Source: Gammaproteobacteria bacterium (lineage in GTDB: Bacteria; Pseudomonadota; Gammaproteobacteria; SZUA-229). From it: 32,832 nt of DNA. Below, piece by piece: positions 4,953-21,319 of this stretch. The notes beneath the pieces are model-generated. The model was not told the origin of the DNA, made no database searches, and was given only the letters and a program-made list of their open reading frames with translations. Position numbers and translations under genes: made by a program. Each line of letters starts with the position of its first letter. Position 1 is the stretch's first letter. The stretch spans positions 1 through 32,832 of the forward strand of contig JAUVDN010000016.1 of assembly GCA_030595325.1 (NCBI GenBank), read 5' to 3'.

Positions 4953-5966
4953 ATGAATATAGGATTATTTACATTTAACTCCCCTTTAATTCTGGCCCCC
5001 ATGGCCGGCGTGACCGACCGACCGTTCAGAAACCTGTGTTACCAGCTAGGTGCTGACTTATGTGTCTCCGAGATGGTCACCTCTGAAAAGCATCTGTGGA
5101 ACAGCAAAAAGACACAGTTACGCCTCAATCATGAGGGCGAGAAAGGTATTCGCAGCGTACAGATAGCCGGCACTGACCCAAAAAAACTGGCTGAAGCAGC
5201 GCAATTTAATGTACAGCACGGCGCACAGATTATCGATATCAACATGGGCTGCCCCGCCAAAAAAGTCTGCAATGTACTCGCTGGCTCTGCCCTGCTAAAA
5301 AATGAACCGCTGGTTGCAAAAATTCTCAGCGCTGTTGTTGATGCCGTCGATGTACCGGTAACCCTGAAAATTCGCACTGGCTGGGACCAGGAAAGTAAAA
5401 ATGCCGTCAATATCGCCAGAATAGCTGAGCAAAGTGGTATACAGGCACTTTCCGTCCACGGCAGAACACGCGCCGATGCCTACAAAGGTGAAGCCGAATA
5501 TGAAACCATCGCCAGCGTAAAATCTGAAGTCGCCATTCCTGTTATTGCCAACGGCGACATCACCGACCCGCAGAAGGCCAAAGAAGTACTCGCCTACACT
5601 CAGGCAGATGGTTTAATGATCGGCCGTGCCGCGCAAGGTAATCCATGGATTTTCCAGCAAATAAAACATTATCTGGCCGAAAGCAAAATGCTTTCACCAC
5701 CAAACAATCATGAAATCAGTAAACTGTTAAGTGAACACCTGCAAAATCTGTACAGTTTTTATGGTGAGTTTTCAGGTGTACGCATCGCACGTAAACATAT
5801 TGGCTGGTACCTTAAATCTATCAACAACCAGAGTCAGAACGATGTTGAGTCTTTCAGAAAACACGTGAACCAGATTGACGATGCCAGCACTCAGCAGCAA
5901 CTAGTTACCGATTTTTTCAATTTACAACAACCTTTAATAGCAGCCCGAACGGCACGAGCAGTATGA
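4953..5966 (+). CDS. dusB: tRNA-dihydrouridine synthase B
   Basis: A flavoenzyme that reduces uridine to dihydrouridine in the tRNA D-loop. The (beta/alpha)8 FMN domain starts with LILAPMAGVTDRPFRNLCY. The catalytic Cys100 lies in NMGCPAKKVCN, KIRTGW binds FMN, VHGRTR and ANGDI are further barrel signatures, and DGLMIGRAAQGNPWIF is the phosphate-binding end. I use the ATG at 4953 (337 aa; MNIGLFTFNSPLILAPMAG), which matches the DusB N-terminus; the frame also opens at a TTG at 4908, but that adds an unrelated extension. The last bases overlap fis by four (ATGA), showing translational coupling. DusB rather than DusA/C is supported by the fis neighbour. Confidence 0.95.
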   Translation: MNIGLFTFNSPLILAPMAGVTDRPFRNLCYQLGADLCVSEMVTSEKHLWNSKKTQLRLNHEGEKGIRSVQIAGTDPKKLAEAAQFNVQHGAQIIDINMGCPAKKVCNVLAGSALLKNEPLVAKILSAVVDAVDVPVTLKIRTGWDQESKNAVNIARIAEQSGIQALSVHGRTRADAYKGEAEYETIASVKSEVAIPVIANGDITDPQKAKEVLAYTQADGLMIGRAAQGNPWIFQQIKHYLAESKMLSPPNNHEISKLLSEHLQNLYSFYGEFSGVRIARKHIGWYLKSINNQSQNDVESFRKHVNQIDDASTQQQLVTDFFNLQQPLIAARTARAV

Positions 5967-6253
5967 GCGATCAAGATTTACAAGACTCCACACAAGACAA
6001 TTCCGAGAACAATACACAGGAAATATCGCAACTAAGTCACGCGGTAAAGCATTCCATCCGTCGCTACCTTTACGAATTAGAAGGCACTCAGCCAAATAAT
6101 ATGTATGAGATGGTACTCAAACAAATAGAGCAGCCTTTATTTGAAGCGATACTGGAACACACCAAGGGCAACCAGTCTCGTGCGGCGGCGCTGCTTGGGC
6201 TTAATCGTGGCACCTTGCGGAAGAAATTGCGTAGTTATAATTTACATAAATAG
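5963..6253 (+). CDS. fis: DNA-binding protein Fis
   Basis: A 96-residue nucleoid protein and growth-phase regulator. The C-terminal half is highly conserved: LYELEGTQPNNMYEMVLKQI, then EAILEHTKGNQSRAAALLGL and the recognition helix NRGTLRKKLRSYNLHK, a helix-turn-helix at about 70-90. The N-terminal 25 residues are polar and variable, where the invertase-activating hairpin sits in enterobacterial Fis. The start overlaps the dusB stop, so the dusB-fis operon is intact. No terminator is obvious right after the stop; the inverted-repeat element begins 12 bases later. Confidence 0.95.
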   Translation: MSDQDLQDSTQDNSENNTQEISQLSHAVKHSIRRYLYELEGTQPNNMYEMVLKQIEQPLFEAILEHTKGNQSRAAALLGLNRGTLRKKLRSYNLHK

Positions 6254-6265
6254 GTTTGTAGTACG

Positions 6266-6390
6266 CACTTGTAGGAGCGGATTTTTCTCATTCCGTGAAG
6301 TTTTGTTTTTTCTTTAGCTCTTGCAGTTTGATTTAAGTTTAATATTTTACTTTAGCATTGCGGTAGTCGCACCGCGGGCGAGTTACTTTT
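6266..6390 (+). repeat. left terminal inverted repeat of the fis-purH element
   Basis: It begins CACTTGTAGGAGCGGATTTT and is the reverse complement, with a few substitutions and a short indel, of 6901-7022. Its outer 29 bases are also related to the solo copy at 21192-21220. Confidence 0.75.
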
Positions 6391-6730
6391 CTTTATGAAT
6401 AACATCCATGTTATTCACCCTGCGGGCCGAGCAGAGCTCGTTCAAATTTGCTCCAGGCAAATTTAGTCAATAGCAAAAGAAAAGTAACCAAAAGAATGCC
6501 ATCCCACACGTTTGCCCCGAGAAAAACACTCGTGGCTCCTGAATGAAGCAGTGTTGCCAACGAGTCGCTCTGATGCGCCATCCGGGCGCACAGAGCTGAA
6601 TTCGCCGTCCATGGCGAATTCCCTCTACCAACACCACTTCATTCAGCAAACGAGAAGGGAACTTAAAAACAAACAAAGCACAACAAGCCTACTGTTTTAT
6701 TCTTTTGACTTCTCTTCGCATTAGCCGAGC

Positions 6731-6826
6731 CACTGAGGTGTTACCGGTGTCATGGGCTTTCTGTGAAAACTGTCTGAGCGATTTCTGCGAGTTTTTTCAC
6801 AGCATGATATCGGTAATGCATCAGTG
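6731..6826. repeat. large imperfect stem-loop inside the fis-purH element
   Basis: Arms of about 36-40 bases pair: CACTGAGGTGTTACCG at 6731 with CGGTAATGCATCAGTG ending at 6826, and further in CTGTGAAAAC (6761-6770) with GTTTTTTCACAG (6791-6802). The loop is about 20 bases. Pairing with only a few mismatches suggests selection or copying of a folded unit. Confidence 0.6.
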
Positions 6827-6877
6827 AGAACCCATGTGTTTTTTACAGGGGCGACTAGCGTCGCGACGGCCTTTTCT

Positions 6878-6911
6878 GGTTACTCTTTTGGGCTGTAGCA
6901 AAAGAGTAACC
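6878..6911. repeat. perfect 13-bp hairpin beside the right terminal repeat
   Basis: GGTTACTCTTTTG (6878-6890) and CAAAAGAGTAACC (6899-6911) are exact reverse complements around an 8-base loop. The related arm pair 6382-6394/6476-6488 carries the similar core GTTACTTTTCTTT, so the same motif is used at both ends of the element. Confidence 0.75.
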
Positions 6912-7022
6912 CGCCTGCGGGGCGGGACCCGCAATGCTAAAGTAAAGTATCAAACTTAAACCAAACAACAAGAACTAAAAAACAAAGCTTCGCGGAATGA
7001 GAAAAATCCACTCCTACAGGTG
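6901..7022 (-). repeat. right terminal inverted repeat of the fis-purH element
   Basis: It ends in CTCCTACAGGTG and pairs with 6266-6390. The exact 15-base core CCGCAATGCTAAAGT at 6929-6943 is the inverse of 6349-6363. It ends 113 bases before the purH start. Confidence 0.75.
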
Positions 7023-7135
7023 ATTACTGCACCCCTCGGAAGTAAACAACGCACTCAATCTCAAAGTAACAAAATTCACCCCACTCAGTTATAATTCGCC
7101 CTCCAAAAAATAAAACCCAAGTAAAAGGTGGCCCT

Positions 7136-8707
7136 ATGACCGATTCAACTCAACGCCCAGTTCGACGTGCACTTATCAGTGTTTCTGACAAAGAGGGCAT
7201 AGTCGAATTTGCCAAAGCGCTACACACGCAAGGCATAGAAATTCTTTCTACTGGTGGCACCGCCAAACTACTTATCGAGAACATGATCCCGTGCATGGAA
7301 GTATCTAAACATACCGGTTTTCCAGAAATTATGGATGGTCGTGTAAAAACTCTGCACCCGAAAATTCACGGTGGCATTTTGGGACGTCGCGGTATTGATG
7401 ATGGCGTGATGAAAGAAAATGACATCGCAGCTATCGACCTGGTCGTCGTTAACCTCTACCCTTTTGAAGCAACCGTTGCCAAAGAAGACTGTTCGCTGGA
7501 AGACGCCATCGAAAACATCGATATCGGTGGACCGGCAATGGTTCGTGCGACAGCCAAAAATCACGCCTATGTCAGCATCATTGTTGACCCGATTGATTAT
7601 CAGCGCGTACTTGAAGAATTACATAATAATGAAGGCTTGGTCAGTGATGCAACTCGTTTTGACCTTGCGGTTAAAGCATTTGAACATACCTCAAACTATG
7701 ACGGCATGATTGCCAACTACCTCGGCCGCGTTAAAGAAGACGGTACCATGGACGAACTGCCTCGAACCATCAATCTGCAATTTAACAAAGTACAGGAAAT
7801 GCGCTACGGCGAGAACCCGCATCAGCAAGCTGCTTTCTATACAGAAAAAAATGTTACAGAAGCCTGTATTGCTACCGCTAAACAGTTACAGGGTAAAGAG
7901 CTCTCGTATAACAATATCGGTGATACCGATGCAGCACTGGAATGTGTGAAACAGTTTGAGCAGCCATGCTGCGTCATCGTCAAACATGCCAACCCTTGTG
8001 GTGTAGCAATCAGCGATAACCTTCTAGAGGCCTACAACAAGGCTTACAGCACCGATCCTGAATCAGCTTTTGGCGGCATTATTGCCTTCAATCGCGAACT
8101 TGATGGCGATACAGCAAAAGCCATTGTTGAACGCCAGTTTGTTGAGGTAATTATTGCACCGAGTATCAGTGGTGAAGCAATTGATGCCGTTGCTGAAAAG
8201 AAAAATGTTCGACTACTCGAATGCGGGCAGTGGGAAGGTACGCAAGCGCGCATGGACTTCAAACGTGTAAACGGCGGTTTGCTGGTGCAGGACGCTGACC
8301 TGCTGTTACTTAATGAGATGAAAGTTGTCAGCGAAACACAGCCTTCTGAACAGGAAATGATTGACCTGCTGTTCAGCTGGAAAATTGCTAAATTTGTTAA
8401 ATCTAACGCCATCGTTTACGGTAAAAATAATATGACCATTGGTGTCGGTGCCGGTCAAATGAGCCGTATCAACAGCGCACGTATAGCGGGTATAAAAGCG
8501 GAGCATGCCAGTCTGGAAGTACCCGGCTCTGTCATGGCTTCTGACGCATTCTTCCCGTTTCGCGATGGCATCGATGCCGCGCATGAAGCAGGTATCGTTG
8601 CTGTTATTCAGCCCGGTGGTTCAATGCGCGATGATGAGGTCATCGCCGCAGCCAATGAATACGGCATGTCGATGGTATTTACCGGCATGCGTCACTTCAG
8701 ACACTAA
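7136..8707 (+). CDS. purH: bifunctional AICAR formyltransferase/IMP cyclohydrolase PurH
   Basis: This enzyme catalyses the last two steps of IMP synthesis: formyl transfer to AICAR, then ring closure. It has 523 residues, close to the usual length. The N-terminal IMP cyclohydrolase (MGS-like) domain spans about 8-195, with [24 protein letters not shown] and the [16 protein letters not shown] signature. The transformylase domain spans about 200-523, with [13 protein letters not shown], the catalytic KHANPCGVA (Lys283-His284) and [12 protein letters not shown] good Shine-Dalgarno AAAGG lies 10 bases before the ATG. In many relatives purD follows directly; here it lies 12.6 kb further on, after the cbb3 locus. 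Confidence 0.97.
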
Positions 8708-21144: not shown

Positions 21145-21191
21145 TCCCAATCGTGAAGCACCAAAGGTGACACTCCTGCCAAGAGCGTTTT

Positions 21192-21220
21192 TGTAGGAGC
21201 GGAATTTTCTCATTCCGCGA
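21192..21220. repeat. solo copy of the fis-purH element terminal repeat (REP-like)
   Basis: TGTAGGAGCGGAATTTTCTC plus the following nine bases match the outer end of both terminal repeats at 6270 and 7018 with two or three changes. This copy is a better hairpin than those: GCGGAAT (21200-21206) pairs exactly with ATTCCGC (21213-21219) around six bases. It lies 47 bases after the two-helix gene and 100 bases before purD. Confidence 0.7.
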
Positions 21221-21319
21221 ACCCCTCAAACAAATAACCAACCTATTAGTGTAAAATACTGCGCTTTAAGTCATTCGCCCCCATTTTTTTCATAATACAA
21301 ACACCAAAGATCAATCATC

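Follow-up and report, generated by a model that had tools for sequence, protein, structure and literature searches.

Structure of the element between fis and purH

The window, i.e. the whole stretch of 32,832 nt that was analysed, carries a non-coding element of 757 nt (6266-7022) between fis and purH. Its two ends match each other in inverted orientation at 82.4% identity (query 1-125 against its own 637-757; 125 and 121 nt), much as a sequence-only reading of this DNA had described them, with imperfect terminal inverted repeats of about 122-125 bases. The repeat search also revealed further inverted pairs inside, two of them perfect over 13 bp (6382-6394/6476-6488 and 6878-6890/6899-6911), and the inner hairpins of that reading were thus recovered. 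Between fis and purH, and over the whole of 5966-7136, the ORF scan detected no ORF of at least 100 aa, so the statement that no transposase is encoded holds as well. Each half of the element folded better than all of its dinucleotide shuffles (z from -4.3 to -8.6).

The terminal inverted repeat was found to be composite, consisting of a REP, an AT-rich spacer and the outer end common to two homologous inner units; the ends are inverted, as had been read, without being one simple repeat. Its outermost part is the left REP (TGTAGGAGCGGATTTTTCTCATTCCGTGA; 6269-6305, plus strand), which is of the type present in the REPINs on both sides of a RAYT gene (L030) and gave dozens of short matches genome-wide. 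The right REP (6984-7020, minus strand) is its inverted copy, as evidenced by the self-match and by comparison with the flanks of the RAYT gene. A further REP of the type at the outer ends of the element was observed at 21191-21221 of the window.

Inside the REPs lie the two units, or arms, both directed from the centre outwards. The A unit runs leftwards on the window (6352-6690, minus strand) according to the module map and the profile search, and its fold on the minus strand gave a z of -6.1. The B unit, a homologue of A, runs rightwards (6692-6941, plus strand), as determined from the module map, the profiles and the covariation (fold z -4.9). The A arm contains a GTTACTTTT...AAAAGTAAC hairpin with a perfect 13-bp stem (6382-6488, minus strand), the loop of which is enlarged in the fis-purH copy; an extra AACAUGGAUGUU hairpin inside this loop (6396-6417, minus strand) is also present in L131, L132, L137 and L140. 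The B arm carries a GGTTACTCTTTTG...CAAAAGAGTAACC hairpin, again with a perfect 13-bp stem (6878-6911, plus strand). Each arm has the GTTACTTTT...AAAAGTAAC hairpin at its outer end, within the genus as well as at loci from other families, and the scattered pieces of this kind that the sequence-only reading had mentioned correspond to it.

Copies and the same site in relatives

In the genome of origin (G000; 2.3 Mb, 83% complete), the nucleotide search retrieved about 19 long matches to the element with 73-90% identity, and its outer 35 nt gave several dozen short matches. PurH places the host among uncultured gammaproteobacteria, its nearest named records being MAGs of that class. Nucleotide matches were found in 16 of 18 relatives of the genus or family, and in none of 11 genomes of other families at the search sensitivity used. 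The genomes compared are mostly MAGs, the element ends are fuzzy and the assemblies often break at copies. All copies were intergenic; with the gene neighbours called by a simple ORF finder, 15 of 36 scorable copies lay between convergent genes and 8 between divergent genes. None of the copies with scored neighbours was an autonomous form, with a gene placed between its arms. Neither the plasmid nor the phage collection gave a match to the element, and the plasmids gave none to its G287 version; carriage on plasmids or phages was rejected on the basis of both collections.

The fis-purH spacer of G000 measures 882 nt, and subtraction of the 757 nt of the element leaves 125 nt, i.e. the length of an empty spacer. 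Outside the core the spacers are too diverged for base-exact empty sites; compared by length and content only, they are about 100-175 nt long and empty in several congeners (e.g. L039 and L045), and elsewhere contain a REPIN (L033), a B/B dimer (L038, L040), a different A/B dimer (L049) or an end-to-end palindrome (L037). The filled spacers therefore hold differing, non-equivalent copies across congeners. The sequence on the promoter side before purH is kept in most relatives. In the short palindrome of L037 (G001) the two outer ends alone are joined, resembling an armless deletion derivative. Both the further copies and the empty sites that had been suggested as a check were thus encountered. 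The contrary outcome, a single copy that is unbroken at fis-purH, is not what the genomes hold, since copies are many and the spacer is empty or non-equivalently filled in congeners.

A head-to-head dimer with a TwoAYGGAY arm

Module mapping revealed that in nearly every complete copy a minus-strand unit (A or B) comes first and a plus-strand unit (A or B) second. As an inverted dimer, the core joins two structured units of about 250 nt head to head. The A and B profiles find each other, the B profile matching the A arm of the window at 5.8e-28, which indicates that both units are homologous. The A arm is a member of the family TwoAYGGAY (RF01731), with a match at 6520-6666 on the minus strand that exceeds the gathering score (52.2 bits against 43; E 2.3e-7). 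Two hairpins with GGA terminal loops were located by hairpin analysis on the same strand of the window. The first (6598-6621), as read on the sequence, has the hexaloop AUGGAC with a C-G closing pair, and the second (6573-6591) is GCGCC-CGGAU-GGCGC. The B arm gave no Rfam match and, as judged from the profiles, is a homologue of the TwoAYGGAY arm and not a member of RF01731.

RF01731 was present in 18 of 274 gammaproteobacterial genomes and in 25 of 299 genomes of a phylum sample, with one weak hit only outside Gammaproteobacteria. Carrier genomes often had at least nine matches, these counts being lower bounds. Outside the genus the B arm gave weak hits only, in two other genomes. According to the coordinates from the 274-genome and phylum-sample searches, all 13 opposed RF01731 pairs within 1 kb were arranged minus-then-plus; exceptions to this order are L205 (plus then minus), L252 and same-strand runs in G554. 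The tandem same-strand TwoAYGGAY hits of G554 (C1:1379445-1380744 and 3660687-3662476) were about 0.4-0.6 kb apart. By sequence, the head-to-head design was also found in G287/G176, G104 and G259, and the inverted dimer recurs in distant gammaproteobacterial families.

The arm subtypes of G287/G176 retain their partner subtype at different loci, which shows that amplification has acted on the dimer as a whole. At one orthologous site of G287 and G176 (L226/L252) the flanks are 92-95% identical and the arm subtype differs, as if exchanged in place; the stems of these arms differ and the GGA loop is kept. In L222 and L232 an arm is broken by an insert of about 260 nt in both congeners.

REP borders and RAYT

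The outer 40 nt of the fis-purH copy are REPs (TGTAGGAGCGG...) of the type found in the REPINs that flank the RAYT gene of G000 itself. This gene (C101, L030) has TTGTAGGAGCGG...CCGCTCCTACA REPINs on both sides. The outer 40 nt thus correspond to a REPIN in having two inverted REPs of the resident RAYT, but the short spacer with a single hairpin is replaced by about 680 nt with two multibranched units. A recognisable REP was present at 16 of 32 core ends in G000, 38-87 nt outside the core. Most element ends of the copies in G001, G008 and G017 have no adjoining REP, and in the unrelated G287/G176 the end sequences differ from the REPs of the fis-purH copy. This indicates that the core does not depend on REP borders.

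Y1 transposase hits were obtained in 14 of 15 carriers. G017 (97% complete) carries the element and gave no Y1 transposase hit, from which it follows that a RAYT is not needed for keeping copies. RAYT as the only mobiliser of the core was also considered, and is weakened by the REP-less copies and by the Y1-less G017. In the search for target duplications the longest symmetric direct repeat was 4.3 nt, against 4.0 nt for random pairing, with fuzzy element ends; no target duplication or exact element end was found, the 32 core ends in G000 having been checked for REPs. A second Y1 transposase gene (L031; G000 C35:1792-2079) lies amid another palindromic repeat (GTAGGCCGTGATAAGCGNNAGCG), apparently a further REP family that has a RAYT of its own.

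Selection on the single-strand fold

In the B arms 66 pairs were evaluated, with 97.5% of the cells paired. None of 500 shuffles was as good, the shuffles being 86% paired and the slid controls 39-52%. Changes on both sides were seen in 36 of the 66 pairs, and the paired substitutions that had been proposed as a check were thus detected. In the A arms (two families), double changes occurred in 20 of 31 consensus pairs. On the unit strand G-U cells exceeded A-C cells (386:51 in B, 121:46 in A, where the split between B and A rests on profile scores, and 125:29 in G287/G176), and the excess reverses on the opposite strand. It follows that in both arms the selected strand reads from the centre outwards, and the covariation shows the fold to be under selection on that strand. 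The strand of the RF01731 matches agrees with the covariation strand. The asymmetry between G-U and A-C is compatible with RNA and single-stranded DNA alike.

A comparison of G287 and G176 at one orthologous site gave identities of 88-90% for the arms, 54% for the centre and 80-92% for the coding flanks. The B arm has invariant loop sequences of its own, namely CATGGGC, TGTCTGAGC and GCGAGTT.

GGA loops and predicted CsrA binding

Under a strict loop test (C-ANGGAN-G on a stem of 5 bp or more), the hairpin was present in all 35 G287/G176 arms and in 21 of 27 A arms. No antisense occurrence was detected in these arms, and dinucleotide shuffles gave at most 0.003 per arm. The hexaloop was found in none of 71 B arms, so CsrA binding is not a common function of all copies. 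The same loop was observed on unrelated stems in about a dozen other families.

The site of CsrA/RsmE is an ANGGAN hexaloop (SELEX RUACARGGAUGU), the SELEX hairpins mostly have four or fewer pairs, and sites separated by 10-63 nt are bridged by the CsrA dimer, with an optimum above 18 nt (PMC7652899). In those A arms in which both sites were recognised, the two GGA are 27-29 nt apart; the GGA stems of the A arm are often 8-10 bp, longer than most SELEX hairpins. CsrA is encoded in all eight carriers examined, which says little since the protein is common in the class. RF01731 had been proposed as CsrA-binding independently and earlier (PMC4333381), and from the strong motif match together with this prediction we infer that the A arms may bind CsrA. 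In the literature nothing relevant was found on a repeat carrying CsrA sites; the CsrA prediction for RF01731 was known before, and the repeat and dimer context appears to be new.

Discussion

The observations are best explained by a REP-bordered non-autonomous repeat with an inverted-dimer core, the arms of which are structured RNAs and the A arm of which is a putative dual CsrA site. We consider this explanation probable. The arm fold would act as RNA rather than as DNA. As the sense strand reads outwards in each arm, any transcript that runs through the element, from whichever side, would carry one sense arm on its 3' side, and the orientation of the insertion would not matter for the function. 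To CsrA/RsmA the A arm would offer a bridged dual site, serving either as a decoy or for binding in a 3' UTR. The element probably disperses by a RAYT-type mechanism that recognises hairpins in single strands and acts on the REP borders, where there are any, and it is plausible that the RAYT moves the REP-bordered copies. As a tentative extension, which we hold with clearly less confidence, the inverted-dimer elements may disperse themselves and seed gammaproteobacterial chromosomes with outward CsrA/RsmA-binding RNAs, and the copy number and position of the repeats would set free CsrA or attach neighbours to the Csr regulon.

The sequence-only reading had offered three alternatives, each of which holds in part, as the three describe different layers of a single element. 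The non-autonomous transposed element fits the dispersed copies and describes one layer only. The composite of REP-like units is correct for the outermost 40 nt, which are REPs of the resident RAYT, and the core differs. The structured RNA is favoured by the conserved single-strand fold, the strong covariation and the membership of one half in an Rfam family, but RNA and single-stranded DNA are not separated by the asymmetry. The head-to-head dimer, the TwoAYGGAY identity and the CsrA-type loops had been missed.

Alternatively, the fold could be selected as single-stranded DNA, the arms being long end structures that a Y1 (HUH) transposase recognises on excision and insertion and the loops its contacts, with no RNA function. 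This would fit the Y1 hits in 14 of 15 carriers, the match of the REP borders to the RAYT-flanking REPINs and the failure to see a target duplication, as is to be expected for Y1 elements. It is nevertheless unlikely, since REPs are missing from half of the ends, the ends in distant genera are different and the nearly complete carrier G017 has no Y1 hits. Moreover, end recognition would not require conserved inner arms, and the loops match the CsrA hexaloop exactly, in their spacing too. A purely passive, BIME-like role, in which the arms attenuate transcription or protect mRNA 3' ends and the loop sequence is irrelevant, is more doubtful still. The hairpins are very stable and the copies always intergenic, 15 of 36 scorable ones between convergent genes, but 8 lie between divergent genes, and the loops and internal loops are invariant while the stems change, which a role in stability alone does not need. 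That the element is only a decayed REPIN or BIME cluster folding by chance is highly improbable: the fis-purH copy has REPs on both sides and a core-less REPIN occupies the fis-purH spacer of the congener G014, but this is contradicted by the covariation (pairing in 97.5% of the cells, compared with 86% for shuffles and 39-52% for slid controls), by the RF01731 membership of the core and by cores found without REPs.

The preferred explanation, a REP-bordered repeat with structured RNA arms, can be compared with several known systems. MITEs have terminal inverted repeats, no transposase gene and dispersed intergenic copies. The element shares with them the terminal inverted repeats, the dispersed copies and the lack of a transposase gene, whereas no parent insertion sequence or target duplication was found and its interior consists of two covarying homologous units. 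Like the antagonist RNAs of the CsrB/RsmZ type it has ANGGAN loops and several putative CsrA sites; in contrast to them, there are two putative sites per A arm instead of many and many dispersed copies instead of one gene. It resembles the REPIN/RAYT system in its inverted REP borders, its extragenic and multicopy occurrence and its association with a RAYT (PMC3116915). A REPIN consists of two REPs and a short spacer, with 71 bp between the ends for GI (PMC3116915), whereas the REPs of the present element enclose about 600 nt of structured cargo, and most of the element family lacks REPs. Another close system is TwoAYGGAY RNA (RF01731, PMC2864571), of which the A arm is a member, with two GGA-bearing loops in both. 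That family has been described as a motif standing alone or as a candidate sRNA, whereas in the present element it makes up one of the two arms of a dispersed head-to-head dimer, continues into conserved 3' hairpins and has as its partner a homologous arm without an Rfam match.

The orphan family TwoAYGGAY thereby gains a genomic context, as the arm of a dispersed inverted dimer that is widespread in gammaproteobacteria, and the dimer accounts for the scattered GTTACTTTT...AAAAGTAAC pieces. The published CsrA prediction for RF01731 becomes concretely testable. The possibility is raised that a repeat family, and not a dedicated gene, supplies sites for the global post-transcriptional regulator CsrA, and a repeat that seems meaningless as DNA may give rise to RNA that binds a regulator.
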